Positions 510 through 25,966 of a DNA stretch of 36,938 nucleotides are shown here, piece after piece (position 1 is the stretch's first letter; every line of letters starts with the position of its first letter). The translations under genes were made by a program, and so were the position numbers. The stretch comes from a virus, in IMG/VR virus record IMGVR_UViG_3300020200_000073, positions 1 through 36,938 of that record; one strand, written 5' to 3'. The notes beneath the pieces were generated by a model. The model made no database searches, was not told the origin of the DNA, and saw nothing but the letters and a program-made list of their open reading frames with translations.

Positions 510-542
510 TTTGGCTGAGTGCTTGATTTATCCCTACTTTTG
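510..542 (+). promoter_or_regulatory. Bacteroidetes-type promoter of the terminase operon
   Basis: A -33-like TTTG (510-513) is followed after 21 bp by TACTTTTG (535-542), which matches the Bacteroidetes -7 consensus TAnnTTTG. The ATG of the small terminase gene begins only 4 nt after this element. A start site at the usual distance would give a leaderless or nearly leaderless mRNA. The element also argues for the start at 547 over the upstream in-frame ATG at 511, which would lie before the promoter. Confidence 0.6.
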
Positions 543-546
543 TGCA

Positions 547-963
547 ATGCCGACAAATACGTTTGTAAAGCGTAAGATGAGAGAGTCTGCAAAGGCTGAG
601 GTTGTGGAAGACGGCACGGAGATAGCCCATCCTGCGCAGTCAGATATCATTCAAGAGGTATTTCCCGTACTTTTGAAGAATGGTAGTCGTACACCGAAGA
701 ATGTAACGAGAAAAGACATCAGGGATCTTTTGGATGCCGACTTGGATAGGAGTATTGGCGGTGTTCGTAGGATGGATGCTTTGATTGCGAGATTGGTGAC
801 TGAGGCGATTAGGGGCAATATGAGGGCGATGGAATTGACTTTGGCTTACTTGTATGGCAAACCAGGTCAGCAGCAGACTGCGCCCGACACAGGGCCGTTT
901 GTACTTGAATTAAGCGAACCGACAACGGATGAAGCTAACAGCGAGGCAGACGAAGGCGTATAA
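547..963 (+). CDS. Probable terminase small subunit
   Basis: This 138-aa protein probably recognises the phage DNA end during packaging together with the large terminase, which it overlaps by 35 bp. The call rests mainly on position. The central part (IRDLLDADLDRS to LAYLYGKPG) resembles small DNA-binding phage proteins of the TerS/DUF5681 kind, and the Asp/Glu-rich tail is typical of proteins that bind a packaging motor. I chose the ATG at 547 and not the longer frame from 511, because a TAnnTTTG promoter element ends 4 nt before it and the extra 12 residues look non-coding. I see no catalytic motif. A generic DNA-binding protein is the alternative. Confidence 0.6.
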   Translation: MPTNTFVKRKMRESAKAEVVEDGTEIAHPAQSDIIQEVFPVLLKNGSRTPKNVTRKDIRDLLDADLDRSIGGVRRMDALIARLVTEAIRGNMRAMELTLAYLYGKPGQQQTAPDTGPFVLELSEPTTDEANSEADEGV

Positions 964-2278
964 ACTTGCTATCTCAGGCGAGAAGCAGTTTATCTTGTTT
1001 GGTGGAGCAATCAGGGGAGGAAAGACTTATTGCCTCTTGCTGACTTTCATTTCGCTTTGTTCTAAATACCCACGATCTCGGTGGGTGATTATCAGGCAGA
1101 GTATGCCCACGCTCCAACGAACAACCTTGGTGACTTTCACCTCTTTGATGAACCAAGGTCTTGGAACGCACATCGCGGGGTGGGATAAGCAAGCGCAGAT
1201 TGTGACTTTTAAGAACGGCTCGGAACTGCTCTTTATGGGCGAGAACTACGACACCGACAAAGACTTTGACAGGTTCAAAGGTCTTGAAATCAACGGTGCA
1301 GGGATTGACGAGATTAACGAGTGTCAGGAAGGCCTGCTTTACAAAGTCCTTGAGCGTGCGGGTTCGTGGCTCAATGCCGAGGGCAGACCACCGATTGTGG
1401 TGATGGGTACTTGCAATCCGAGCAATAATTGGGTGAAGGAACTCGTTTATGACAAATGGAAAGAATCAAACCTTCCCCCCACCTGGGCGTACATCCCCTC
1501 CAAGATTACCGACAACCCCCACATTCCTGAAGATTACCTCAAATCCCTGCGAGACAATATGCCCGAATACGAATATAAAAGATTCGTGGAAGGCGATTGG
1601 GAGGTGCAGGAAAAGCCAGAAAACCCTTTCTTTGTATCCTATGACTCCAAACGACACGAATCCTTCCAACCCACCTTCCGCACCAACCTCCCCATCTACA
1701 TCTCTTTGGACTTCAACTTGCAGCCATTCTGCGGAATCGTTGCCCAAATGTGGACCGATGACCAAGGAGATCACCTCCATATCGTGGACGAGTTCAACGT
1801 GGTGGATGGCTCCATCCCTAAAATGGTGGATACGATAAAGGCCAAGTACGCTCCGTTTTTGTTCTCCTGCCTGATTACGGGGGATGCAATGGGCAAGCGT
1901 GGTGATTTATCGCAAAGGGACAACGCAAACTATTACGAGCAACTTGCACGGGGCTTGGGACTGAGCCAAAAGCAAATCCGTGTTGTTCCCAACCCAAAGC
2001 ATGAGAATAGCCGAGCGCAATGCAATTACCTTTTGCAATTCCACCCCGATATTAAGATTAACCTACGCACCTGCCCTGGGATGGCAAGGGATATGAAAAT
2101 GGTGGCCTGCGATGCCGCAGGAACAATTATCAAAAGAAACCGCTTTATTATCAGCCAACAGTCCGACTTTGCCGACTGCTTTCGGTATCTTTGCAACAGC
2201 TTCCTGAGCGAATGGTACATTAAGCACCTCAAACGGAGCGGGTACAACAAGTTCGGGCCTAACTTTATCCCTTCCTGA
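929..2278 (+). CDS. terL: Terminase large subunit (packaging ATPase-nuclease)
   Basis: This 449-aa protein is the DNA-packaging motor: an N-terminal ATPase translocates DNA into the prohead and a C-terminal nuclease cuts the concatemer. Walker A is GGAIRGGKT at residues 25-33. Walker B with the catalytic Glu is AGIDE at 124-128, followed by the coupling motif GTCNPSNNW at 160-168. The RNase H-like nuclease shows acidic residues at D261 (SLDFN), D319 (TGDA) and D413/D416 (SDFAD). The length is normal for a TerL. It starts inside the end of the small subunit gene, which suggests translational coupling. This is one of the safest calls in the window. Confidence 0.95.
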   Translation: MKLTARQTKAYKLAISGEKQFILFGGAIRGGKTYCLLLTFISLCSKYPRSRWVIIRQSMPTLQRTTLVTFTSLMNQGLGTHIAGWDKQAQIVTFKNGSELLFMGENYDTDKDFDRFKGLEINGAGIDEINECQEGLLYKVLERAGSWLNAEGRPPIVVMGTCNPSNNWVKELVYDKWKESNLPPTWAYIPSKITDNPHIPEDYLKSLRDNMPEYEYKRFVEGDWEVQEKPENPFFVSYDSKRHESFQPTFRTNLPIYISLDFNLQPFCGIVAQMWTDDQGDHLHIVDEFNVVDGSIPKMVDTIKAKYAPFLFSCLITGDAMGKRGDLSQRDNANYYEQLARGLGLSQKQIRVVPNPKHENSRAQCNYLLQFHPDIKINLRTCPGMARDMKMVACDAAGTIIKRNRFIISQQSDFADCFRYLCNSFLSEWYIKHLKRSGYNKFGPNFIPS

Positions 2279-2290
2279 AATAATCCAACT

Positions 2291-2626
2291 ATGAGCTGCC
2301 TTGAATGCACCGACTGCCTAAGCATAGGAACTTTTGACCTTTGCTGCGAGACCATTACCCTCGCCCAAGCCGATCCAACCACCACCTACCGCGTGGTCAT
2401 TACCGATGTTACTATTGACAAAAGGACATCTTACGACTTAACCACTAATGCGAATGGCGATGTCACGCTCACGCCAGACGAAGCCCTCTACACCACGGGC
2501 CGTACTTACGAGGTGCGTATCTACCCCGAAGACGCTTGCGATTTCAACGACCCCCAAGAAATGACAAACGACCTCCACGAGGACGCACAAACCTGCTTTT
2601 CTTTTGAATTTGAACGATTAACATAA
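2291..2626 (+). CDS. Small Cys-rich hypothetical protein
   Basis: This 111-aa acidic protein has an N-terminal cluster of cysteines (CLECTDC, then LCCETI) and a beta-rich composition with many Thr and Asp residues (TTTYRVVITDVT). It has no signal peptide or membrane segment. It lies 12 bp after the terminase gene, and its stop overlaps the next start. The same Cys-rich opening style (MSC..) appears in the connector protein at 20228. A virion or tail-accessory role is possible but not shown. I do not recognise the family. Confidence 0.7.
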   Translation: MSCLECTDCLSIGTFDLCCETITLAQADPTTTYRVVITDVTIDKRTSYDLTTNANGDVTLTPDEALYTTGRTYEVRIYPEDACDFNDPQEMTNDLHEDAQTCFSFEFERLT

Positions 2627-2931
2627 TGTACACCATTGAAACCTTCTACCGCGCCTTGATTGTGAGCCTGATGGTCGTGTCGCTCTCCATTTCTATGGAG
2701 GATGAGCAACTGCTAAACGGCCTGCAAAAGCGATTGAGACACCTTCTACCCCCCGACAAATACCCATCGCTTCACAAACCCTTGTACGGCTGTGTGGGGT
2801 GTATGGCATCCTTTTGGGGAGGCATCTTTTACCTGCTAACCGTCCCAATCTTCGGCTTTCACCCCCTTGAAATGGGTGTCGTAATGATTATGGGCGTTGC
2901 ACTCAACTTCATCTTTATCAAAATATCGTGA
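2626..2931 (+). CDS. Small membrane protein with CxxC motif
   Basis: This 101-aa protein has an N-terminal hydrophobic stretch (residues about 8-22) and two C-terminal ones (about 62-78 and 82-98). Between them lies the motif KPLYGCVGCMASFWG. A similar hydrophobic protein with a KPL-C-x-x-C-M-A-S-x-W-G motif is, as I recall, common just before the tail-chaperone genes of Bacteroidetes phages, but its function is unknown. Its start overlaps the previous stop by 1 bp, and its TGA overlaps the GTG start of the next gene (GTGA). That indicates one tightly coupled operon. Confidence 0.75.
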   Translation: MYTIETFYRALIVSLMVVSLSISMEDEQLLNGLQKRLRHLLPPDKYPSLHKPLYGCVGCMASFWGGIFYLLTVPIFGFHPLEMGVVMIMGVALNFIFIKIS

Positions 2932-3572
2932 TACACAAACTTGTTTACAAGCTCTTCAAAAAAGAGCTGACCCAAATGGTATGGGATGAAACCTACAAGC
3001 CCGATAGGATGAAAGGCCTGAAATTCGCCTTGGTCTGCGAGGGGCATAAGTATTACATCTATTCCAACATCTTTGACATCCCCATTGAGCGAATGGGCAG
3101 GGTTCAAGACCTTGTGATCCAACTTCAAAGAATGGTAAGCCGTGAGGAGTTGGACGTGTTCTTGGAGAATATGGAGAACGCCTTGAACGCCTCAGTTTCG
3201 GGCGCAGCCGTGAAAAACTTGGCGCAAATTGGCTTTTTGGTGGGAGAAATGAGAAAGAGGAAGGAAATGCTGATCCATCCCGATGTGATGATGGAACTTG
3301 CAGGGGCGGTTTTGATTCGTGAGGACCAAAACCCAGGCGAGTGGAATGCCGAGTTTGAGCAGAAAAAGGTGGAGGCTTTCCGAAATGCGTACAAAGAGAA
3401 GGCGTTGTATGATTTTTTCGTTTTAGCCGGGCTGAGTCAATACTTTCCCAATATGGAGTATTTAGAAGAAGATTGGATAATCTTCTGGGAGATGGCCTCC
3501 TCCCGGCTGCAAGCGACACAGGAACTCCTGAAATCCGAGCTATCGGCTCAGAACTCTACTTCAACGACCTAA
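2928..3572 (+). CDS. Putative tail assembly chaperone
   Basis: This 214-aa protein lies directly upstream of the tape measure gene, where siphoviruses encode the chaperones (lambda G-like) that coat the tape measure during tail assembly. The body is helical and charged, with blocks such as WDETYKPDRMKGLKFAL near the N-terminus and IGFLVGEMRKRKEML, MELAGAVLIREDQNP and EKALYDFF further on. The start is a GTG overlapping the previous stop (GTGA). An ATG at 2976 would lose about 16 residues. Within its last third lies the slippery heptamer T TTT TTC (3413-3419), and the -1 frame is open from exactly there. A longer fusion protein is therefore possible. The chaperone role rests on context and general resemblance. 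Confidence 0.7.
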   Translation: MIHKLVYKLFKKELTQMVWDETYKPDRMKGLKFALVCEGHKYYIYSNIFDIPIERMGRVQDLVIQLQRMVSREELDVFLENMENALNASVSGAAVKNLAQIGFLVGEMRKRKEMLIHPDVMMELAGAVLIREDQNPGEWNAEFEQKKVEAFRNAYKEKALYDFFVLAGLSQYFPNMEYLEEDWIIFWEMASSRLQATQELLKSELSAQNSTSTT

Positions 3573-3721
3573 ATTGGCGTGAGTTCTTCGTCTTCCTTGC
3601 GGATGGCGATATCTTTCTGTACAAGGAGTATATGAAAACATCCGTTGAGGATGTCTTAACTTTGCTCAAGCACTTCCAAGAGGAAAGGCAACGCAAAGCT
3701 AAACAAAACAAAGATGGCTGA
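3473..3721 (+). CDS. Overlapping second chaperone ORF without an ATG start
   Basis: This frame overlaps the upstream chaperone gene by 100 bp and runs into the tape measure start. Its C-terminal part (from about GSELYFNDLNW to KHFQEERQRK) looks like real protein. The first ATG is at 3631, after most of that sequence. Expression therefore needs either a non-AUG start (TTG at 3473, just after AGAAGAAG) or a -1 frameshift from the upstream gene. The frame is -1 relative to 2928-3572 and is open from 3413 to the stop. By analogy with lambda G/GT, it could be the T-like extension that binds the tape measure. The start given here is only one option. Confidence 0.55.
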   Translation: MDNLLGDGLLPAASDTGTPEIRAIGSELYFNDLNWREFFVFLADGDIFLYKEYMKTSVEDVLTLLKHFQEERQRKAKQNKDG

Positions 3722-6700
3722 TAGAATATCCGTACAATACGATGCGAACGTAGATGACCTCAAGAGAAAGCTTGATGACCTGATCGCAAAGAACACGCAA
3801 CTTGCCAACGCAGCCAATACGGCTCAAAGGGCGATGGCGGGTCTTAATTCAACGGTTGGATCAACGAATAACGCCCTCAATCAGTCCACGACTGTCATAA
3901 ACAACTACAACAACTCTGTTAATACGACCAACAACAGCGTTAATAATTTGAACAACTCTATCAATAATACGAGAGGACAACTCGGATTGTTTGATGGGTT
4001 CCTTCAAAGGATTGCGGCAAGAATGGCCGCTGTCTTTGCGATTGACTCAATCATAAACTTTGGTAAAGCCGTTGTTGATGTAACGCGAAAGACTGAACTC
4101 CTGCAAAATAGATTGAATTTTATATTTGAAAATACTGAAAGTGGCCGTGCTGCATTTGATAGGCTTTATGAAATAGCACAAAGACTCGGTATAGAATTTG
4201 AAAATCTCTTACAAGGCTTTTCAGGGTTTGGTATTGCCGCAAGGGCAGCGGGATTTTCTGCAAAAACCACGGAAACTATTTTCGTTAAAGTCGCTACCTC
4301 TTTAAGAGCCGCAGGAGCTTCATCCTTGCAGACTCAAAGAGCCTTTTATGCCTTGCAACAAATGCTCTCCAAGGGCGTGGTCGCTGCCGAGGAATTGAGA
4401 AGGCAGTTGGGTGAAGCCTTGCCTGGAGCTTCCGATAAAATGACTAAAGCCTACAACAGGCTTCATCCCGCGCAACAGCTTACCAATAGACAATTTACAA
4501 AGTTGCTTGAAGATGGTAAAATCCTTTCCGCTGAAATACTACCCGAATTTGCAAATGTATTAGAAGAAGACTTTGGCCCTGCACTTGCGGGGAAACAAAA
4601 CTCTTTGGATGCTACGCTCATAAGGGCCGGTAATGCCTTTGAGAGATTTAAGCTTCAAATTGGTGAAACTAATTTTGAACAAATATCGGGTACTTTCAAG
4701 TGGCTTGAGGGAAGATTAAACAATATCAACATTCTTTTGAAAAATTCAAAGGGATTTTGGGAATCTTATTCTAATGTTGTTAATGAGTTCTTTTTGGGGG
4801 ATAGCAATGTCGGGTTAGGTAGAACTTGGCTGGGCAGATGGTGGCAGGAACGTCGGGAGGAGGAGAAATGGGTACAAGGTATGAATGAAAAAAACTTTAA
4901 CGACCAAGCAATGAATTATGCGAAGGGGAGGGGTCAAAAAAAGGAGTTGGACAAAATGACCAAAGAGGAACTTCTAACCAGGCGAAAGATATTGCAAGAA
5001 GAGATAGAAGCAAACAAATTAACTTCTACCTCAACCGAAACCCAAGTCAGTAACCAAAAAGCAAGAATACGTGGTCTTGGCCTTATCATAGAAAAGTTAC
5101 AGGTTATTTACGAACGAGAAAACGAAAACCTTCAAGCAGCTAATGAGGCAGAAATAGAGAAAGCCGAGCAAAGAAGAAAGGCGTTGAAACTTTTGGAAGA
5201 GGAGATGGAAAAGCAGAAAAAACTTTATGAGGATTCTTTGAAAGACGGCAAGTCAACAAGAGAACAGCAGTTAAAACTTCAAAAGGATTATGTAGATGCC
5301 TATGTGAATTACGAGGTCAAACAACAAGAGGCAGGGGTGAATCAGGCGGCAGCAATTAGGCTTAAAAAGCAAGAAGAGGTTAATCTTGAAATCCTCAATA
5401 TGGATTTGGATGCCTTGCAAACTCAATTAATTAATTACAAAAAATTAGGACTTGATACAATCGCAATAGACAGACAAATCAAAGACAAGAGAATTGAAAT
5501 AATTAAATTAACCGGCAAAACAAAAGAAGAAATAGATTTAAAAATCGCTCAACTTGAGGACAAAGAAAGAGAAGAAACGTCCAAAAAAGATATTGCAGCG
5601 GTTGAAAAAGAACTCAATGCTTTCAAAGAAGCGCAACAAGAAAAAATCTCAAAAACTAAAGAAGGATCTAAAGAAAGGCTTGATTTAGAAAATGAGCTTC
5701 TAAACAAAGAAGAGGAGCTTATGAAGAAAATGGTGGATTTAAGCATAGGGCTTACGGAAGAAAAGGAATCAAAGAAAAGCGAAATAACAGCCACATATAC
5801 TAAAAAAAGAAGAGCATTAAATGAAAAGACAGACAACCAAGAAGAAAATCACGCAGAAAGAATACTTAAAATTCTGCAAGAATCTCAAGACTTGATTGAA
5901 AGAAGCGAGGGCGATTCCTTTTCAAGAAGGCTTGCAAGGTCAAACCAGACCTTTGAAAAGATGAGGAGGAAGATTGAGGAAGAAATTAAAAGGATAGGGG
6001 CAATTCTAGCGAAGACACCTGAAGAGTCAGCGTTTCTGAAGGGATTAGAAGAACAACTGCAGAGGGTTACAAATGCGGGAAAAGAGGCCGCATCTGCAAT
6101 TACCGTAGAGCAATTTGGCGAAGTTGTTGGCAGGTTTGGAGATTTATATGATGAAGTGTTGAGGAAACAATCAATTCTTTACGAAAACGAACAGAACAAC
6201 CTCAAAAGAATGCTTGACCAAAAGCTGATAAGCGAAGAGGAATACGAAGCAAAATCGCTTGTGTTGAAAAAGAAGCAATTTGAACAAGAGAAGCAAGCTG
6301 CAATCGTAGGGGCAATAATTGATGGAGCAGCAGCGATTGTGAGGGCGTTGAAGAACCCTTTAGAGGTGGCCTTTGTCGCTGCTATGGTTACGGCTCAAAT
6401 AGCCACCATTCAATCCCAAAAATTCCCCGGTTTCAAGGAAGGGGTGATTGATTTACAGGGCGCAGGCACGGCAACTTCCGACAGTATTCCTGCGAGGCTA
6501 TCAAGAGGCGAGTCGGTGATGACTGCGGCTGAAACAGCTAAATACAAACCCGTTCTTCAGGCTATTCGTGATGGTGAATTTGAGGCGTTTGTAGCGAAGC
6601 GATATACTGACGCAATGCGTAAGCAAGACGGTTCGGGTAAATCAAAAGAATCTTTTGCCGAAAACATTGTGAATGCTTTTGACCTACAATCTGCCGAAAT

Positions 6701-6815
6701 CATAAATGCTATTGGTAAGAACAAGAGAGTTAAAATTGATAACGTAAAAGAACTTGCAGGAGCAATCTTTCCAAATACCATTCGGCATAGGGCCACAAGT
6801 AAAAAACTCAACTAA
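3714..6815 (+). CDS. Tail tape measure protein
   Basis: This 1033-aa protein sets tail length and is ejected with the DNA. By the usual rule of about 1.5 angstrom per residue it implies a tail of about 150 nm. An Asn/Thr-rich stretch (about 45-85) precedes a region matching the tape-measure N-terminal domain (about 125-265, with FENTESGRAAFDRLYEIAQ and GVVAAEELRRQLGEALPGAS). A long charged coiled-coil follows (about 380-820), then a hydrophobic Ala/Ile segment (about 865-905) and the ending FKEGVIDLQGAGTATSDSIP typical of these proteins. No peptidoglycan-hydrolase domain is visible. It overlaps the previous frame by 8 bp and the next gene by 1 bp (TAATG). Confidence 0.9.
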   Translation: MADRISVQYDANVDDLKRKLDDLIAKNTQLANAANTAQRAMAGLNSTVGSTNNALNQSTTVINNYNNSVNTTNNSVNNLNNSINNTRGQLGLFDGFLQRIAARMAAVFAIDSIINFGKAVVDVTRKTELLQNRLNFIFENTESGRAAFDRLYEIAQRLGIEFENLLQGFSGFGIAARAAGFSAKTTETIFVKVATSLRAAGASSLQTQRAFYALQQMLSKGVVAAEELRRQLGEALPGASDKMTKAYNRLHPAQQLTNRQFTKLLEDGKILSAEILPEFANVLEEDFGPALAGKQNSLDATLIRAGNAFERFKLQIGETNFEQISGTFKWLEGRLNNINILLKNSKGFWESYSNVVNEFFLGDSNVGLGRTWLGRWWQERREEEKWVQGMNEKNFNDQAMNYAKGRGQKKELDKMTKEELLTRRKILQEEIEANKLTSTSTETQVSNQKARIRGLGLIIEKLQVIYERENENLQAANEAEIEKAEQRRKALKLLEEEMEKQKKLYEDSLKDGKSTREQQLKLQKDYVDAYVNYEVKQQEAGVNQAAAIRLKKQEEVNLEILNMDLDALQTQLINYKKLGLDTIAIDRQIKDKRIEIIKLTGKTKEEIDLKIAQLEDKEREETSKKDIAAVEKELNAFKEAQQEKISKTKEGSKERLDLENELLNKEEELMKKMVDLSIGLTEEKESKKSEITATYTKKRRALNEKTDNQEENHAERILKILQESQDLIERSEGDSFSRRLARSNQTFEKMRRKIEEEIKRIGAILAKTPEESAFLKGLEEQLQRVTNAGKEAASAITVEQFGEVVGRFGDLYDEVLRKQSILYENEQNNLKRMLDQKLISEEEYEAKSLVLKKKQFEQEKQAAIVGAIIDGAAAIVRALKNPLEVAFVAAMVTAQIATIQSQKFPGFKEGVIDLQGAGTATSDSIPARLSRGESVMTAAETAKYKPVLQAIRDGEFEAFVAKRYTDAMRKQDGSGKSKESFAENIVNAFDLQSAEIINAIGKNKRVKIDNVKELAGAIFPNTIRHRATSKKLN

Positions 6816-11233: not shown

Positions 11234-12184
11234 ATGAGTGAACAAACCACAGGCATAGTGATAATGGCTTTTGGAAAGCCTGCCTATCACGAAATGGCAT
11301 ACAACTTCGCCTTATCGGTCAAGCACTTTGACAACGACATACCAATACAGTTTATTTGCGATAGCAAGGATGTGCTTTTGGGGCATAAGTATTGGGTTTT
11401 CAATCGGGTTGATTTGATTGAGCGAGATGACCTCTATATTGATGGGAGGATATTCAGCCCTGGCAGAGCCAAGACCCGCATTGACAAATATATGGCCTTT
11501 GACAACAATCTGTACTTTGACACGGATGGCATTGCTCTCAAGTCCATAAAGCCATTGATTGAGAAGATGTTGGCTTTGCCGAAGGAGGGTTATTTCTTTT
11601 CGCAGACCGCAAGTTGGACGGATCCTGAGGGTAAAACTCCGATGGCGAACCTAAAGGAGAACGGCCCTGATTTTGTGGAAATGCAATGGGCAACCCTTGA
11701 CACAATTTGGGAATATCACGAACTTCCTGACAATGCGAAGGTTACGGCCATAAACAGTTCGTTTATGTTCTTGCGGAAGGGAGAGAAATTGACCGAGTTC
11801 TTTGAGCAGGTGAGGGATAACATTGACAATGGTATTCCTATAAGCAGATTGAAGATGCCTTGGGGAGGCACATATCCCGATGAACTTGCGTTCAATATCG
11901 CCTGCGCCCAATACCGAATTGACCCTTGGTGCGGATTAAACCCTGTTTATTTTCAGTTCAAAAACTCAATGACAGGCAAAATTGTCAAATGGGTTTATGA
12001 GAACTATTATGTCTTGGGTCTTTACGGAGGTGAAGGATTTACGCATAATTCGGTTTGGGAGATGTCTTGCAATCTTTTAGGTCAATATCACGCTAATATG
12101 GGATTGACCCACGAGTACAAATGGCATACCCTTGTAAAGCAAAAGCACGCAGGAAAGCAAAAGCAACTGATACGATGGAATTAG
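11234..12184 (+). CDS. Putative glycosyltransferase (GT-A, GT8-like)
   Basis: This 316-aa protein probably transfers a sugar from a nucleotide-sugar donor to a virion or host acceptor. The N-terminal strand (TTGIVIMAFGKPAYHEMAYN) resembles the nucleotide-binding start of GT-A enzymes. NNLYFDTDGIAL (residues 91-102) supplies a DxD metal-binding motif (D96-T-D98), and a later segment, PWGGTYPDELAFNIA, resembles the acceptor-side region of GT8-type enzymes. It is the first gene of a five-gene cassette and its 3' end overlaps the next start by 10 bp. No membrane segment is present, so it should act in the cytoplasm. The exact family is uncertain, but the glycosyltransferase class is fairly clear. 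Confidence 0.7.
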   Translation: MSEQTTGIVIMAFGKPAYHEMAYNFALSVKHFDNDIPIQFICDSKDVLLGHKYWVFNRVDLIERDDLYIDGRIFSPGRAKTRIDKYMAFDNNLYFDTDGIALKSIKPLIEKMLALPKEGYFFSQTASWTDPEGKTPMANLKENGPDFVEMQWATLDTIWEYHELPDNAKVTAINSSFMFLRKGEKLTEFFEQVRDNIDNGIPISRLKMPWGGTYPDELAFNIACAQYRIDPWCGLNPVYFQFKNSMTGKIVKWVYENYYVLGLYGGEGFTHNSVWEMSCNLLGQYHANMGLTHEYKWHTLVKQKHAGKQKQLIRWN

Positions 12185-12831
12185 AAGGCTTTGTTTCAAT
12201 CATAACGACCTGTAAGGGCAGGATGCACCATTTGGAGGAGGCGTTGCCTACTTGGACAACTCAAGTTGGAGATAATTACGAGATTATTGTGGTGGATTAT
12301 GGGGATCCCGACAAGAGCGCGGATTACGTTGAAAAGTTGAACGACCCAAGGGTTCGGGCGGTAAGGCACGATGCCGAAGGCTTTAACTTGAGCCACGCAA
12401 GGAACCTTGGAGCGTTAGCGGCCTCACCTAAAGCTGACACCTTCCTTTTTATGGATGCAGACGCATTGATGACCAACGATTCGTTTGTGAACTACCACAG
12501 GCAGAAGGTTATGGAAGGAGGCACGTTTGTAACCGGTTGGGGATTTGGCGATGGCACGGGATGTTGTATGGTATGGCGAGAATTGTTCAGCCGAGTTCGT
12601 GGTTACAACGAGGTAGTGGATGGATGGGGATTTGACGATGTGGATTTCTATTGGCGCATTGAGGCTCAGGGCTTTGAGCAAAGGGCATTCCACAATGGCA
12701 TAAAGACCATTAAGCACGATGACGAGGACAGGGTTCGTTTCTATGCTAATAAGGATTTGGTGAATACAAACAGGCGAAACCACAAACTGATTAAGAGAGC
12801 TTTTGTGAGTTGCATCCCTGAAAGCTTTTGA
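12175..12831 (+). CDS. Family 2 glycosyltransferase
   Basis: This 218-aa GT-A enzyme starts with VSIITTCKGR (residues 7-16) followed by the nucleotide-binding segment YEIIVVDYGDPD (35-46). The DxD motif is FMDADAL (92-98). A region like the Glyco_transf_7C domain, GYNEVVDGWGFDDVDF (143-158), carries the likely catalytic acid residues. I use the ATG at 12175 and not the track-like upstream start at 12121, because the upstream part overlaps the previous gene by 64 bp and is Lys-rich noise, while 12175 gives a normal GT2 N-terminus. A single base separates it from the next gene. Donor and acceptor are unknown. No membrane segment is seen. Confidence 0.85.
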   Translation: MELEGFVSIITTCKGRMHHLEEALPTWTTQVGDNYEIIVVDYGDPDKSADYVEKLNDPRVRAVRHDAEGFNLSHARNLGALAASPKADTFLFMDADALMTNDSFVNYHRQKVMEGGTFVTGWGFGDGTGCCMVWRELFSRVRGYNEVVDGWGFDDVDFYWRIEAQGFEQRAFHNGIKTIKHDDEDRVRFYANKDLVNTNRRNHKLIKRAFVSCIPESF

Positions 12832-12832
12832 T

Positions 12833-13699
12833 ATGAGCGTTAAGGTCAGAGCGATATGTAATTGGACTGATTCCACGGGGTTGAATCAAAGAATTATGGA
12901 ACAATCGCTTTGGAAAGAATCCGATGGCATTGAGTTTGTGGATGATGATTCCTACGATTGGCTTGTGGTCTTTAACGATAAGAGAGGCGCAGAGCCAAGA
13001 GTGCCAAAGGAGAGAGTTATCGGATTCATCCAAGAGCCACCTGACCACGATTTTTTTGACAGGAATATCGGAGCGTACTGCTCCACCGTTTACACTTGCA
13101 CGCATCCATCCATCTACGGCATTAAGGGCAACCTTGTGGGCTTTCCCTGTGGGATGTTCTACCATACGGACGGCCCTTTGAGGGACTACCTCAAGGACTC
13201 CATTGCCGACTGCAAGACAAGGATATTGAGTATGGTGACGAGCGGTATTTCCCACGGCTTCTACCTGAACCGCGTTAAATTAGCCAGAGAACTTGCACAA
13301 ACGTCTTATGCTGATGTTTATGGGCGTGGCCTTGGTCTTGGCAAGGGAGAGCTGAAAAACAAGGCTGATGGCCTTATTCCGTACCGTTATTCGGTATGTA
13401 TGGAGAACGGCATTTGGCAGGGCTATATCTCCGACAAGATTATTGATGCGATTCTATGCCGAGCCATCCCGATTTATGTAGGCGCACCCGATGTGCTTGA
13501 GCATATCCCTTTTGCCTTCAACATAAAGCATTACACGAAGTCTGCGTTGGCTAAAGAGGAGATAGGCGGTATTATTGCATCGGCATCGCCTCAACTGATT
13601 CTTGAGCAGATGAATGCGTGGGTTCACAAGTATGCCGAGGAGTACACGATATATTCAAAAATCAAAAGTCATATCCAAAATGAAAAAGGTATTTCTTGA
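12833..13699 (+). CDS. Fucosyltransferase-like glycosyltransferase (GT10)
   Basis: This 288-aa protein carries the C-terminal signature of family 10 alpha-(1,3)-fucosyltransferases. YRYSVCMENG (184-193) corresponds to the family's Y-x-F-S-x-x-x-E-N-S block, followed by GYISDKIIDAILCRAIPI (197-214) and YVGAPDV (215-221). These bind GDP-fucose in known members. The N-terminal half is the more variable acceptor domain. It is soluble and has no transmembrane anchor, like bacterial GT10 enzymes. The window has no GDP-fucose synthesis genes, so the donor would have to come from the host. The actual donor could differ. It overlaps the next gene by 20 bp. Confidence 0.85.
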   Translation: MSVKVRAICNWTDSTGLNQRIMEQSLWKESDGIEFVDDDSYDWLVVFNDKRGAEPRVPKERVIGFIQEPPDHDFFDRNIGAYCSTVYTCTHPSIYGIKGNLVGFPCGMFYHTDGPLRDYLKDSIADCKTRILSMVTSGISHGFYLNRVKLARELAQTSYADVYGRGLGLGKGELKNKADGLIPYRYSVCMENGIWQGYISDKIIDAILCRAIPIYVGAPDVLEHIPFAFNIKHYTKSALAKEEIGGIIASASPQLILEQMNAWVHKYAEEYTIYSKIKSHIQNEKGIS

Positions 13700-14261
13700 T
13701 TGCGGGACGCACCTGTGCGAGGGCTTAAATCATTTTGTTGGAAATGGTCTTTTGGATGATTCTTTTGAGATTCACGCCTTTGAGGCAAACCCCACCTGCG
13801 ACATAGAAAACCGAGTGAAGGCGTTGCCATTGCCTATCAAGTGCCACAATGTTGCCGTTTGGATAAAGAATGGGTATGTTGAGTTCAATCAAGAGAACCA
13901 CAAGAAAAGCGGGAGCAATTCCCCCAACGATGGGCTTTCAGACATTGATGGATGGGGGTCTTCCGTAAAGGAAACGGGATTTGTTCACGCAGGATACGAA
14001 ACGTCCGTGAAGGTTAAAAGCATTGATTTTAGCAAATTTCTGGACAAATTCCCTAAAGACGCTATGATTTATTGCAAGATGGACATTGAAGGGAGCGAGT
14101 TTTTTGTGCTAAGACACTTGCTTGAAACGGGAAACATATCAAAAATTCACACCCTTTTCGTTGAGTTTCACCCAACAAACATTGAAGGAGAATCTACGCA
14201 GACCGTTTCTGAGTTGGTTAAACGGGTGTCGGATAAAGGCGTTGTCGTAAAAATGTGGTGA
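13680..14261 (+). CDS. FkbM family methyltransferase (1)
   Basis: This 193-aa S-adenosylmethionine-dependent methyltransferase has the FkbM layout: a SAM-binding start VFLDCGTHLCEG (4-15), the strand IHAFEANP (31-38), and the signature MDIEGSEFFVL (134-144) followed by LFVEFHP. FkbM-type enzymes usually methylate hydroxyl groups of sugars or polyketides. Next to three glycosyltransferases, sugar O-methylation is the natural reading. I start at the ATG at 13680 because the 22 extra upstream residues fully overlap the fucosyltransferase gene and lack methyltransferase character. It sits 17 bp before a second FkbM gene. Confidence 0.85.
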   Translation: MKKVFLDCGTHLCEGLNHFVGNGLLDDSFEIHAFEANPTCDIENRVKALPLPIKCHNVAVWIKNGYVEFNQENHKKSGSNSPNDGLSDIDGWGSSVKETGFVHAGYETSVKVKSIDFSKFLDKFPKDAMIYCKMDIEGSEFFVLRHLLETGNISKIHTLFVEFHPTNIEGESTQTVSELVKRVSDKGVVVKMW

Positions 14262-14278: not shown

Positions 14279-14932
14279 ATGAACGAAACTGATTTTCTAA
14301 AAAAGGCTTTTGGCACTAAATATGGCGAAATCATCATATTTGACATAGGGGCTGCCGATTTTGGTCATACTATTGCCTTCAAAGAGGCTTTCCCAAATGC
14401 GATGATTTACGCATTTGAAGCCGATGCTGAGAACATAAAGAAGTATTCGCATCGTGTTTCTAATGCGTCCAATGTGATTGTTACGCCTTGCGCAATTTCG
14501 GATAAGAAAGGCTATGCCACATTTTTTCCAAGCGAGAACTACAACGGCCAACCTTGGCGGTATTCTGGGTCATTGATAAAGCCTATCGTTGTGCCTGGAA
14601 CAAGCGAAGAAATTGTTCACCCAAGCCTTCACTACGATATGAAAGGCGTAAAGGTCAAGACCATTCGCTTGGATGATTTTTGCAGGAAGAATCGTATAAA
14701 AAGCATTGACTACATACATATTGATGTGCAGGGAGCGGAGTACAAGGCTATTGTTGGCTTGGGAGATTTACGTCCTTCTTACATTTTTGCTGAAACCTGC
14801 GAGTTTGAAACCTATGATACGGGAGTTACTCTTGCTGACTTTGATGAATTGATGAAGAAAAAGGGTTACAAGATTGTGCAGAGGCACGATTATGACACGC
14901 TCTATGTTCACAATGCAGAGCCGATTACATAG
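14279..14932 (+). CDS. FkbM family methyltransferase (2)
   Basis: This 217-aa second FkbM protein shows motif I as FDIGAADFGHT (21-31), the acidic strand YAFEADAENIKKY (44-56) and the signature YIHIDVQGAEYKAI (145-158). It is clearly a distinct paralog of the preceding gene, with a longer central part (about 80-125) and D-V-Q-G in place of D-I-E-G. Two methyltransferases could modify different hydroxyls or different sugars of one glycan. It is the last gene of the cassette, and a new promoter element follows 10 bp downstream, before the portal gene. Confidence 0.87.
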   Translation: MNETDFLKKAFGTKYGEIIIFDIGAADFGHTIAFKEAFPNAMIYAFEADAENIKKYSHRVSNASNVIVTPCAISDKKGYATFFPSENYNGQPWRYSGSLIKPIVVPGTSEEIVHPSLHYDMKGVKVKTIRLDDFCRKNRIKSIDYIHIDVQGAEYKAIVGLGDLRPSYIFAETCEFETYDTGVTLADFDELMKKKGYKIVQRHDYDTLYVHNAEPIT

Positions 14933-20227: not shown

Positions 20228-21232
20228 ATGAGTTGTTGGAATAATGTAATCGGAATCCGTGGCTTATGCGAGCCTGGCTTGGATCCTATAAGCGGCCTCT
20301 ATATCAATGATTTGACAGGAATCAGCCTTGCCGACCTTGATTCGGGGGTGAACGAAGAGGATAAGACCGCTTACACGCTTATTCAGCGCAAGATTGACCA
20401 AGCCGCCAATATGCTCAAGGCCGAGTCTTTGGCCTATATGCAGAGCCGTTGGAATTACACGACCTCTGCGTTCAATGGCGATTTGGGATATTATGCGGAG
20501 AGCGTTGAGGCTCTTCCTGCTGCTGCGGTATGGAGGGGCATTGGAATGAGGTATCGGCAGGTAGATTACATTTCGGTAACGATTTCTTCTATCAGCCTTC
20601 TTCTTCCAAGTTCAGGCGTTGTGCCTGTGAGGGTTGTTGATTTGAGGACAGGAGCGACTTTGGATACTTTTAATGTAACCTCGGTGGCGAATGCGGTGAC
20701 GAGGCTTGTGGTGAATAAGACCTATCAATCCAATGGTCAGATGTTGAACCTTGCTGTGCTTTACAATGCGACTTCGGTGGCCTCGTTTCAAACAGGTTTG
20801 TATCCAACTTATGGATGCGGTGGGTGTGGAAGGGGTTATGGATGGACTGAGAATATGCTTGAAAGGGCGATTGAAATCCCCACGAGCAAACCATTACTTG
20901 ACTTGAACATTAGCGGTGGAGCGTTTACCGGGGGTTTGAGCGTTCAGTACAACGTGGCTTGCAGCTTTGAATCGCTTATTTGCGCTCACGTTGCTCAGTT
21001 GGGTTATCCCTTGCTTTACAAGGTCGGTATGCTGTTGCTCAAAGAGATGCAGTTCTCCAAGAGACTGAATGGTGTGATTGTGTTCAACAGGGATATGAAT
21101 GAGGAATTGGCCAATTACTATCAGGCTCAATACGACCAATATATGCAACGCTATTTTGAGCAAGCGAACCTGCCAGAAAACGGTTGCTTTTCTTGCAGAC
21201 AAAAGGTTAGGCAAGCCTCTCGCATACCGTGA
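20228..21232 (+). CDS. Conserved head-tail connector-region protein
   Basis: This 334-aa protein opens with MSCWNNVIGIRGLCEP, a Cys/Trp-rich start that I recall from a conserved but unnamed protein family of Bacteroidetes phages and elements. It also has a Gly/Cys patch (TYGCGGCGRGYGW, about residue 198) and a C-terminal CFSCRQK. The middle is beta-rich, and the end (about 275-315) is a charged aromatic helix (NEELANYYQAQYDQYMQRYF). It follows the capsid gene with its own promoter and overlaps the next gene (GTGA). A connector or neck role is inferred from position only. Confidence 0.6.
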   Translation: MSCWNNVIGIRGLCEPGLDPISGLYINDLTGISLADLDSGVNEEDKTAYTLIQRKIDQAANMLKAESLAYMQSRWNYTTSAFNGDLGYYAESVEALPAAAVWRGIGMRYRQVDYISVTISSISLLLPSSGVVPVRVVDLRTGATLDTFNVTSVANAVTRLVVNKTYQSNGQMLNLAVLYNATSVASFQTGLYPTYGCGGCGRGYGWTENMLERAIEIPTSKPLLDLNISGGAFTGGLSVQYNVACSFESLICAHVAQLGYPLLYKVGMLLLKEMQFSKRLNGVIVFNRDMNEELANYYQAQYDQYMQRYFEQANLPENGCFSCRQKVRQASRIP

Positions 21233-21678
21233 CGCTTAATGATTACATAAGCAAATTACAAGGGCAGAGTTCTTCTCTGAAAGCGAATTTGGTCGCTGCA
21301 TTGGACGAATCTGCTCCAAACACCCACGACACCCAAGTATTGCCCAGGATCTTTGAGAAAGGCTTGAAGCCTGATTCATTACAGATTGGCAATTACGCAA
21401 GCGACAATTACAAGGAAAAGAGGCGTAAGAAAGGTTTGCAGGTAGCTTACATTGATATGAAGTTCACGGGGGACTTGAAAAGAGAGTTCAGCCAACCCAA
21501 ACGGAAGGTCGGAGGCAAGACCCCATCCATTTCCTTCAATGTGTTGAGTTCTGAAAATAAGGAGAAAGCTGTTGAGAATGAGAAGCGTAGAGGCACTATC
21601 TTTGGGTTGTCCGTACCAGAAAAGCAGTATTTCGTTGATTTATTGACTCGTAAATTCTTTGAAAAGGTATTCCGATGA
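21229..21678 (+). CDS. Putative neck / tail-completion protein
   Basis: This 149-aa basic protein follows the connector gene. Its layout, with GNYASDNYKEKRRKKGLQV at about 65-83 followed by FTGDLKREF, resembles phage neck or tail-completion proteins of the gp10 or virion-morphogenesis type, in which a G-x-L-x-x-S/E-F strand is typical. The start is GTG, fixed by overlap with the upstream stop (GTGA). An ATG start would remove a large part. Its stop overlaps the next ATG (ATGA). It probably seals or completes the head-tail joint. Confidence 0.55.
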   Translation: MTLNDYISKLQGQSSSLKANLVAALDESAPNTHDTQVLPRIFEKGLKPDSLQIGNYASDNYKEKRRKKGLQVAYIDMKFTGDLKREFSQPKRKVGGKTPSISFNVLSSENKEKAVENEKRRGTIFGLSVPEKQYFVDLLTRKFFEKVFR

Positions 21679-22891: not shown

Positions 22892-23412
22892 TGGCACTTC
22901 AAAGACTGACTTCCTTCACCTTTGGCACGAGGTTTCTTACGCTTGTTTACGGCAGTACGCAGACCTTTAATGTGTCGTATGCCCATTTGATTGGCTTTGA
23001 ATCCGACCCTCGCTCTGGTGACTTGACGATATGGATTTACACGGCAGGCGAGGTGAGTGAAACCTTGTCGGTGAGGAATAGCGATTTGGTTGCGATAGGG
23101 AGTAGCGCTTCTGCGTTCTTGGCTTCGTTGCAGAGCGTGTTGGTGAACCAACTCTTTTGGTTTGAAATATGGGATAACTTTTTGGCTCGTGCGAAAGCAG
23201 GTGGAGCGTTTGCTCCTGAGTTGGAGAGTTCTTGTGGTCGGGAGTTTCGTTATGAGATGTCTGGCCCTCCGCTTGTACCGACTGCTAACGAGGACTACGC
23301 TGACTTTTGGTACTTCAACTTGCGTTGCGATACTGATTTAGCAACTGTGAAAGAGGTTAGTTCATATAATTGCATCCTTGAGAGATTTTCACCTTTGAAC
23401 CCGAACACCTAA
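22891..23412 (+). CDS. Fibre-region protein, long paralog
   Basis: Residues 1-84 of this 173-aa protein match the whole 84-aa product encoded at 25997: both start MAL..LT..FG...LTL.Y, and both have DLVAIG..A.AFL..L.S near residue 67-82. The remaining 90 residues (from about NQLFWFEIWDNF to CILERFSPLNPNT) are unique to this copy. The shared part looks like a small beta domain. The gene lies just upstream of the first fibre-like gene, as its short paralog lies just downstream of the second, so both may serve fibre assembly or attachment. The function is unknown. Confidence 0.65.
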   Translation: MALQRLTSFTFGTRFLTLVYGSTQTFNVSYAHLIGFESDPRSGDLTIWIYTAGEVSETLSVRNSDLVAIGSSASAFLASLQSVLVNQLFWFEIWDNFLARAKAGGAFAPELESSCGREFRYEMSGPPLVPTANEDYADFWYFNLRCDTDLATVKEVSSYNCILERFSPLNPNT

Positions 23413-24698
23413 TGTCTAATCCATCGCTTCTTTGCGTTCCTTATCGCTTTAAGACGAGTAAGCTATATTCTCAAATACCTGATTCTGCTTTGGGTGATTT
23501 TACCGTTACTCGTGCTACCACTCCGGTTGCGGCTAAATCCACGAGGGTCAATGCTTCGGGTCTTATTGAACTCGTTCCTGACAATGTGCCTCGCTTGGAC
23601 TACTTTGCCAGCGGTGGCGTTACGAGCTGCCCTGCTTTGCTTGTTGAGCCGAGTGCGGCAAACGGAATCTTAAACTCTACCGACACCACAACAGGTTGGG
23701 CAGTTGGGGCAAACCTTTCGGGAACTACGATTGATGTCATTGGCGTTTCGGGGATAAACATTGGCATTGTGAATGGGGGTAGTTTTATTACTTCAACGAT
23801 TGGCAGGTGTTTAAGTGCAAATAATAATGTTAGCCTTGCAAGTGGAAGCACTTACACTTTTAGTTTTTTAATGAAAAAAACAGGAGCGCACACGATTGGA
23901 GGGTATCGTTTTTCAATGTCATCGGGAGCTATTGGTGCGGGATTTGACGTTAGTGGCTCTTTTGCAAGTGGAGAAATTGCAAACTCACCACTAATTACAA
24001 ACCGAATCCGCAGGGTAGAGCAATACGGAACGGACGTTTACCGATGTTCGGAAACCTTTACAATGACAGCGGCCGCAACAGCGACAAGTGTGGCATTTGC
24101 ACCATTAAGTGGAGTTACGCTTACAAATAACTCTGAAGTTGGTACTTCAATCGGCTTTGCTGCTCCGCAGTTAGAACTCGGTTCAGTTCCCACAAGTTTC
24201 ATCCCCACCACAACCGCAGCAATCACCCGCAACGCCGATGTGATTTCGGTCAGCGGAGCGGTCAGCGGTGCGATAGGGCAGACGGAGGGAACGATTTATG
24301 CGGAGGTGGATGTTCGCAATATGGCAAAAGAAACGCACATCATAAGGATAGATGATGCCGCAAGTACAAATGTAATTACTTTAAGAACATTGACAAGCAA
24401 TGTCGTAAGAACCGCAATAACCGCTCCAACAACATCAGGAACGCTAAACGTATCAAGTGCGGCATTTACTTCTGGAATTATTAAAATTGCTTTTGCATAC
24501 AAAACAGGAGATATTGCTTTGAGCGTAAATGGAGCAACCGCTTTGACTGCAAATGGAACTTTTACTTTTGGTGCGGCATTAAACAGAGCAATACTTGGTA
24601 GCAACGATGGCGCCTCTTTCTTCAACGACCGCATCCGTGCCGCCGCACTCTACACCACAAGGCTCACTAACGCTCAACTCCAATCTCTCACGCAATAA
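23412..24698 (+). CDS. Tail-fibre-like protein, copy A
   Basis: This 428-aa, Ser/Thr/Ala-rich beta protein resembles the lectin-like or carbohydrate-binding-fold proteins common in phage tails. Residues 1-90 (with KLYSQIP, GLIELVPDNVPRLDY, CPALLVEPSA) and the stretch around QLELGSVPTSFIPTTTAAIT (about 254-273) plus IGQTEGTIYAE are shared with the next gene. The middle (about 95-245) is quite different. This pattern of constant ends and a variable centre is usual for receptor-binding proteins that diverge for host range. It starts on the previous stop (TAATG). No enzymatic motif is seen. Confidence 0.7.
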   Translation: MSNPSLLCVPYRFKTSKLYSQIPDSALGDFTVTRATTPVAAKSTRVNASGLIELVPDNVPRLDYFASGGVTSCPALLVEPSAANGILNSTDTTTGWAVGANLSGTTIDVIGVSGINIGIVNGGSFITSTIGRCLSANNNVSLASGSTYTFSFLMKKTGAHTIGGYRFSMSSGAIGAGFDVSGSFASGEIANSPLITNRIRRVEQYGTDVYRCSETFTMTAAATATSVAFAPLSGVTLTNNSEVGTSIGFAAPQLELGSVPTSFIPTTTAAITRNADVISVSGAVSGAIGQTEGTIYAEVDVRNMAKETHIIRIDDAASTNVITLRTLTSNVVRTAITAPTTSGTLNVSSAAFTSGIIKIAFAYKTGDIALSVNGATALTANGTFTFGAALNRAILGSNDGASFFNDRIRAAALYTTRLTNAQLQSLTQ

Positions 24699-24700
24699 CT

Positions 24701-25966
24701 ATGTCCACCCCATCGCTCTTAAACATCCCTTACCTCTACAAGGCAGGGACGCTATACTCCCAAATCCCCGAAAGCGGTGCAGGTGATTTCACCGTACAAC
24801 GCACCACTTCGCCTGCGGGTTTTACGAATCGCTCTACGAGGATTAACAAGGATGGGTTGATTGAACTTGTGAACGACAACATCCCTCGCCTTGACTATCC
24901 GTTGGGGGGAGCGGTGAATGGTTGTCCTGCGTTGCTTGTAGAGCCGAGTGCGCAGAATTTAACCCTTAATAGCGAAGTCATATCGGGTACTCCCACGGGA
25001 GCGTCTATTGACGCAAATGTAGCCGTATCTCCCGATGGCGCAACAACTGCCGATAAACTCAAAGAAGATTCAAGTTTAGGCAACCACAATCTTGCAGGCA
25101 TAGTTGGAGGCTCTCTTGGCGGAACCGTTGATTCAAGTGCTTATAGGATAAGCATTTTTGCAAAGGCAGATGGGAGAAATCAGTTTACATTTTTTGATAA
25201 TAACCAAACAGGAGCTGGCGCTGGTTTTTCCACTTTTAATTTATCAAATGGAACTGCCACAGGAACGGGTGTTATTCAAAATTACGGCAACGGATGGTAT
25301 CGTTGCGTAATTAGTTGCGCAAAAACATCTACAACAAGCGCAAACGCTCTTATTCGTTTATTGGACGCGGGAGGAAATCAATCCTATCAAGGGAATGGAA
25401 CGAGCGGTATCTTATTTTGGGGAAAACAACTTGAAACAGGCTCGGTCGCAACCTCCTACATCCCCACCACCACCGCAGCAGTCACGCGGAGTGAGGAAAT
25501 AGTCCAAAGACAAAGCGTTCCATTTTTAATCGGACAAACCGAAGGCACATTCTATTTTGAGGGCGAAGCGGATTTTGCGGGTTCTGATTTGCCTATGATA
25601 AATCGCAGCAGCCAAAACTCGGTTTTATTTACAAAAAATTCAACAAACCGACTCATTGGTTATGTGTATTATGGGGGTACTTTTTTTACATTTACAACCA
25701 CAAACCCAATAACGGGGCCATTTAAGGCTGCCATTGCTTACAAGACAGGTAATACTGCGTTTTATGTTAATGGAAGTCAAGTTGGCACAACAAATACAAC
25801 GAGTTGGGCTTTTACAGCACCATTGACCGAGGTCGTTGCTCGTAGTAGCTTTTGGATAGGTGGACTAAAACCATACAAAGTTCGCGCTCTTGGAGTTTAC
25901 CCCAACCGCATCCCCAACACGGCAGCACCCGGAGTTCTCTCCCTCGCCACCCTCACCGCACCATAA
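24701..25966 (+). CDS. Tail-fibre-like protein, copy B
   Basis: This 421-aa paralog of the preceding protein has the same N-terminal frame (TLYSQIPESGAGDFTVQR, GLIELVNDNIPRLDY, CPALLVEPSAQN) and the same QLETGSVATSYIPTTTAAVT and IGQTEGTFYFE blocks (about 248-287). The centre contains a carbohydrate-binding-module-like segment (YRISIFAKADGRNQFTFFD, then NYGNGWYRCVISCAKT) that occurs in many phage appendage proteins. The last ~130 residues look like a second jelly-roll. Both copies may be made, forming mixed or alternative fibres. Two base pairs separate the genes. Confidence 0.7.
   Translation: MSTPSLLNIPYLYKAGTLYSQIPESGAGDFTVQRTTSPAGFTNRSTRINKDGLIELVNDNIPRLDYPLGGAVNGCPALLVEPSAQNLTLNSEVISGTPTGASIDANVAVSPDGATTADKLKEDSSLGNHNLAGIVGGSLGGTVDSSAYRISIFAKADGRNQFTFFDNNQTGAGAGFSTFNLSNGTATGTGVIQNYGNGWYRCVISCAKTSTTSANALIRLLDAGGNQSYQGNGTSGILFWGKQLETGSVATSYIPTTTAAVTRSEEIVQRQSVPFLIGQTEGTFYFEGEADFAGSDLPMINRSSQNSVLFTKNSTNRLIGYVYYGGTFFTFTTTNPITGPFKAAIAYKTGNTAFYVNGSQVGTTNTTSWAFTAPLTEVVARSSFWIGGLKPYKVRALGVYPNRIPNTAAPGVLSLATLTAP

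Follow-up and report, generated by a model that had tools for sequence, protein, structure and literature searches.

In phage lambda, the G/GT tail-assembly gene pair stands directly upstream of the tape measure gene and carries a phased -1 heptamer (G GGA AAG) that leaves 5 frame-0 codons behind the slip; the stop of T overlaps the ATG of the tape measure gene, H, by 8 nt. In P2, whose tail is contractile, the E/E+E' pair occupies the same position before its tape measure gene, T, with T TTT TTG phased at the annotated E/E' frameshift, 6 frame-0 codons left after the slip, and an overlap of 8 nt between E' and T. At the same gene position in Lactococcus phage TP901-1, upstream of the tape measure gene, a phased -1 GGGAAAG opens a long extension; 8 codons are left after the slip and the two parts are annotated as separate genes. 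According to one account, G-T frameshifting is conserved widely even though sequence similarity is low, and the two lambda products stand in a molar ratio of 30:1, a low efficiency (PMC5009743). For a cluster of HK97-like chaperone genes, another reports frameshifting of 6% and 7%, as measured for two genes (PMC3711429).

We analysed one stretch of DNA, a virus record of 36,938 bases (the window), in which a frame-0/-1 gene pair immediately precedes the tape measure gene on the same strand. The features concerned are listed below.

2928 to 3572, + strand: frame-0 ORF with a GTG start, 214 aa; short product, by position a G-like tail assembly chaperone
3413 to 3419, + strand: candidate slippery heptamer T TTT TTC, with the frame-0 reading GAT TTT TTC GTT
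3413 to 3572, + strand: predicted dual-coded overlap, with selection on both frames (synonymous-change deficit and null tests)
3419 to 3721, + strand: -1-frame extension, 100 aa after the slip plus the stop; T-like C-terminal part of the predicted 264-aa fusion
3473 to 3475, + strand: TTG, the alternative start inside the -1 ORF, which we do not take as the main one (TTG in 47/58, CTG in 11/58)
3714 to 6815, + strand: tail tape measure gene (PHROG tape measure families, best E 2.1e-46)

From comparison of this locus with its relatives, the gene at 2928-3721 very probably yields two tail-assembly proteins, of 214 and 264 aa, by -1 programmed ribosomal frameshifting. Most ribosomes would stay in frame 0 as far as 3572, ending at the TAA at 3570-3572, and make the 214-aa protein. 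A minority, with two Phe-tRNAs on TTT TTC, would slip back one base at 3413-3419 onto TTT TTT, resume reading at CGT (3419-3421) in the -1 frame and continue to 3721. The predicted product would have 164 + 100 = 264 aa, the length that a preliminary description of this DNA had already calculated for a fusion via 3419: its first 164 residues would be common to the short form and would be followed by a different, conserved 100-aa part, with ...YDFF-RFSRAES... as the expected junction. The two proteins would form a pair of tape-measure chaperones of the lambda G/GT type, and the long form would contact the tail-tube protein as well.

The tape measure ATG overlaps the stop of the -1 ORF by 8 nt in the window, as in lambda and P2; in some relatives, L063 and L066 among them, the -1 ORF and the tape measure gene share ~38 nt. 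The U-rich heptamer is near-identical to that of P2 and differs from the GGGAAAG of lambda. After the slip, 50 frame-0 codons are left in the window and 41, 50 or 55, themselves conserved, in its family, in contrast to the 5 to 8 of the three phages. Judged from the sequences, and compared with lambda, P2 and TP901-1 only, this long dual-coded overlap is the distinguishing trait of the locus. The likeness to the lambda and P2 genes lies in the arrangement and the phased slip site. HK97, D29, Che8 and Giles were left out of the overlap comparison; in the first three, no canonical heptamer was found near the relevant end. Two further candidates were rejected: in Polaribacter phage P12002S the gene before the tape measure has one canonical heptamer, which opens just 4 more -1 codons, and E. 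coli pheL was dropped as a precedent for slips on Phe codons because its site is CCC_UGA. The gene order over window 511-6815 seems unusual: the terminase gene (929-2278) is followed by one for a 111-aa protein, one for a small membrane-like protein (2626-2931), the chaperone-like gene and the tape measure gene.

The gene family and its identity

Relatives were sought with the frame-0, -1 and tape measure proteins and with alignments, and the outcome was one metagenomic contig family. Two of the sets of relatives are the best 80 of 89 and the best 80 of 87 matches; because the searches rest on short peptide patterns and on such sets, remoter members may have escaped. Frame-0 matches of full length came to 115 loci including the window, which we reduced to 58 rows, 57 of them distinct because one (L033) is a truncated copy of another. 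Retrieved loci are often overlapping views of a single contig, and 87 of the 90 contigs initially collected cover the slip site. Nucleotide identity between rows (over 588 nt) is as low as 61%, the frame-0 protein of the window shares 57-95% of its amino acids with 12 representative relatives, and identity to the -1 part of the window goes down to 41% (13 representatives).

For the frame-0 protein, neither PHROGs nor Pfam gave a match better than E 0.0098 in any of the 13 representatives. That value belongs to the best Pfam match, a family of unknown function; the best PHROG match has an E of 0.016-0.02, and the sole match to a 'tail protein' (E 0.09) was obtained with 1/13 members. The fold model of the frame-0 protein (mean pLDDT 58) found no Foldseek match at E <= 0.001 in BFVD or the PDB, and the model of the -1 protein is weak as well (mean pLDDT 59). 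The chaperone label used in the preliminary description finds support in the position before the tape measure gene and none in these matches; on position, a tail-assembly-chaperone role for the gene at 2928-3721 is probable. No relative of the frame-0 protein appeared in phage records when two family members were used as query, pattern scans confirmed none in genomes of cultured species, and no description of the gene family was found in the papers searched, judging by titles and abstract openings. Among the cultured terminases listed, that of Flavobacterium phage 11b matches best (31% over 68% of the query). The proposed reading would extend a conserved phage tail-assembly frameshift to a metagenomic family lacking convincing PHROG or Pfam matches, and gene calls that lack the 264-aa protein would be put right.

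An invariant heptamer in phase with the upstream frame

The preliminary description had proposed a -1 frameshift like that of lambda G-GT, on a T TTT TTC phased in the upstream frame, and had suggested conservation of the heptamer as a check. The phasing is confirmed (GAT TTT TTC GTT), and the site proved invariant. T TTT TTC is single and phased in 58/58 full-length rows (57 distinct) and always takes up the third base of codon 162 together with codons 163-164. Codons 162-165 show zero variation across the rows, and GATTTTTTCGTT is present in 255/255 retrieved loci covering the site, two of which are views of the window itself; its carriers include 87 distinct contigs as well as relatives with only 57-68% protein identity. 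The rest of the gene offers an internal control. Within codons 2-160, each of the five other invariant Phe columns (49, 78, 103, 143 and 151) and each of the three other invariant Asp columns (20, 61 and 133) uses both of its codons. By this comparison, the conservation of the heptamer is not due to chance.

A scan for canonical X XXY YYZ heptamers showed none in frame-0 phase downstream of the slip site in any of the 58 rows. Upstream of it, AAACCCN is phased at 3329 in 29/58 rows and other heptamers occur in three rows at most. In the window the -1 frame is open from 3413, directly after the TGA at 3410-3412, to 3721, as first described. The exact opening at the heptamer holds for the window and fails as a conserved trait: a TGA immediately 5' of the heptamer is found in just 33/58 sequences, and the coincidence is therefore fortuitous. 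Between the heptamer and 3547, where the scan ended, -1 stops are absent in 58/58 rows. In one relative, L049 (IMGVR_UViG_3300012666_001148), frame 0 terminates (FFV*) right after an intact heptamer at 3541 and the usual frame-0 protein continues in the -1 reading, as though a base had been lost downstream; this may be an assembly error.

Coding in both frames across the overlap

We compared four sequence pairs (the window with L045, L131-L051, L057-L066 and L137-L142) and observed a deficit of frame-0 synonymous changes at the start of the overlap. Where the amino acid is unchanged, 7/78 codons in 3411-3473 carry a synonymous change vs 200/485 upstream (Fisher 4e-9, four pairs). In the pair formed by the window and L045, the -1-only region from 3575 is slow too (4/26 synonymous changes vs about 40% upstream), and part of the low synonymous rate of that pair is therefore regional. 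This region is not slowed in L057-L066 (11/23), L137-L142 (7/20) or L131-L051 (12/31). With these three pairs, the overlap start still has 5/60 changes vs 149/364 upstream (p 2e-7), and with L057-L066 and L137-L142 alone, 3/40 vs 104/243 (p 6e-6). As a separate observation, the slow -1-only region between the window and L045 hints that the tail module of that clade has undergone recombination.

We then used a null model in which the frame-0 protein is fixed, its synonymous codons are redrawn at the upstream rate, and the BLOSUM score of the -1 frame is compared. Over 3420-3473, the observed -1 score was matched by 0/3000 draws (four pairs pooled), and 2952 of the 3000 draws contain a -1 stop; in four more distant single pairs, 0, 16, 0 and 0 of 3000 draws were as good. 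Over 3474-3515 the pooled test again gave 0/3000, and the distant single pairs gave 921, 1223, 115 and 2075 of 3000, i.e.: three of the four do not exceed the null, which indicates that this segment is less constrained between clades. The reverse test, with the -1 protein fixed and frame 0 scored, gave 0/3000 in each of two segments of 3419-3517, and both directions over about 3516-3569 gave 0/2000 (three pairs). Because the tests exceed their nulls in both directions, we take both frames to be coding across the overlap; on the evidence of these substitution patterns, the short and the extended product are both under purifying selection.

In the alignment of the 13 representatives, invariant residues fill 12 of the first 21 positions of the -1 reading (F1, F2, R3, R6, E8, L11, S12, Q13, F17, R18, R20 and L21) and 15 of the remaining 81. 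Since the first block is dual-coded, its conservation alone is not proof, a circumstance that the null test allows for. The preliminary description had suggested locating the point at which similarity passes from one frame to the other. We found no single switch point: the -1 frame is conserved right after the heptamer and frame 0 is conserved to near its stop. Its caveat that the upstream frame still looks coding past the heptamer holds, and the shift nearer the stop that it drew from this resolves as dual coding, because frame 0 is also conserved across the overlap.

After the slip, the C-termini measure 41-55 aa in frame 0 and 94-119 aa in the -1 frame (one row truncated by a contig end was left out). 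As both are encoded partly on the same DNA and both appear selected, the tails of the short and long chaperones would differ, as would their partners. We are evenly divided on the broader proposal that, in an uncharacterised family of tail chaperones, the frameshift exchanges one C-terminal domain for another instead of adding one, on a U_UUU_UUC slip site with no evident stimulator. The long overlap is in any case a natural setting in which to ask why a short product needs a C-terminus of its own.

Alternative readings and candidate stimulators

Comparison across the family establishes that the phased slip site is present and invariant, that both frames code, and that -1 coding sets in directly after the heptamer. 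The invariant heptamer and the -1 conservation that follows it without delay support the G-GT-like frameshift first put forward, and the case for a -1 shift at 3413-3419 in particular is, on this comparative evidence, strong. We infer that ribosomes rather than RNA polymerase would slip, that slipping would be the minority outcome, and how efficient it would be.

The downstream protein could instead be a separate gene, started at TTG 3473 and translationally coupled to the upstream gene, as the preliminary description had also considered. This TTG is the earliest ATG, GTG or TTG of the -1 frame in the window (the earliest ATG is at 3632, one base further than first given), the Leu codon at 3473 is TTG in 47/58 sequences, and a TTG, GTG or ATG is found at 3485 in 29/58. 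However, the 3473 codon is CTG in 11/58, and where a T is kept it may be held by frame-0 Asp-Trp together with -1 Leu. Moreover, this position is preceded by the invariant -1 residues R3 to R20, and just L21 corresponds to the 3473 codon. A start at TTG 3473 cannot account for conserved residues that precede it, and it leaves the -1 conservation over 3420-3473 and the invariant heptamer unexplained. As for homologs with a separate start, which the preliminary description had named as refuting the frameshift, 0/58 rows have a -1-frame ATG, GTG or TTG between 3413 and 3472. We consider a separate gene started at this TTG very unlikely, and it does not stand as a rival main start; it may give a minor additional internal product beside the frameshift product.

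The same -1 protein would be obtained if RNA polymerase slipped on the six Ts and added a U, and the six-T run is always present, with a protein outcome identical to that of a ribosomal slip. Against this, the run is exactly six, and never longer, in 255/255 covering loci, and transcriptional slippage in bacteria usually takes place on runs longer than six. The X XXY YYZ phasing is, in addition, a requirement of tandem tRNA slippage. We give polymerase slippage a very low probability. A shift nearer the frame-0 stop, or a fixed indel or annotation artefact, is hardly credible at all: frame 0 is conserved to near its stop and the slips of lambda, P2 and TP901-1 leave 5-8 codons to the end, but here the -1 frame is conserved already from 3420, canonical phased heptamers downstream of 3413-3419 number 0/58, and the arrangement is identical in 58/58 full-length rows.

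Under the preferred reading, a ribosomal slip at 3413-3419, a stimulator could be expected, since a 3' structure or an upstream SD-like element is common, though not universal, in -1 programmed frameshifting. In pseudoknot-free folding, no downstream RNA structure stood out in seven stretches from five sequences compared with shuffles (z-scores +0.5 to -0.9), and in a 13-sequence consensus 0/16 pairs showed double changes. Upstream, an SD-like AAGG(A/G)G occurs in 10/13 representatives; in the window it reads AAGGCG, and the motif is missing from L131 and L051. SD-like pairing did not exceed that of synonymous shuffles, of which a fraction of 0.08 to 0.86 paired at least as strongly, and the match in the window is weak. 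In E. coli, two heptamers close to U_UUU_UUC, namely U_UUU_UUA and U_UUU_UUU, are reported to shift far less than A_AAA_AAG (PMC5009743). The locus also raises the question of whether, in its host, a U-rich slip sequence is enough with no stimulator.

Elsewhere in the window, a PHROG scan of 29 proteins recognised neither a portal nor a major capsid protein. The region 21229-21678 gave a weak match to a tail PHROG, a glycosyltransferase-like protein is encoded at 12121-12831, and two nearly adjacent proteins (13614-14261 and 14279-14932) match one methyltransferase PHROG. Over 23412-25966 there are two consecutive proteins (428 and 421 aa) that both match one tail PHROG, phrog_5939, which points to a tandem duplication.
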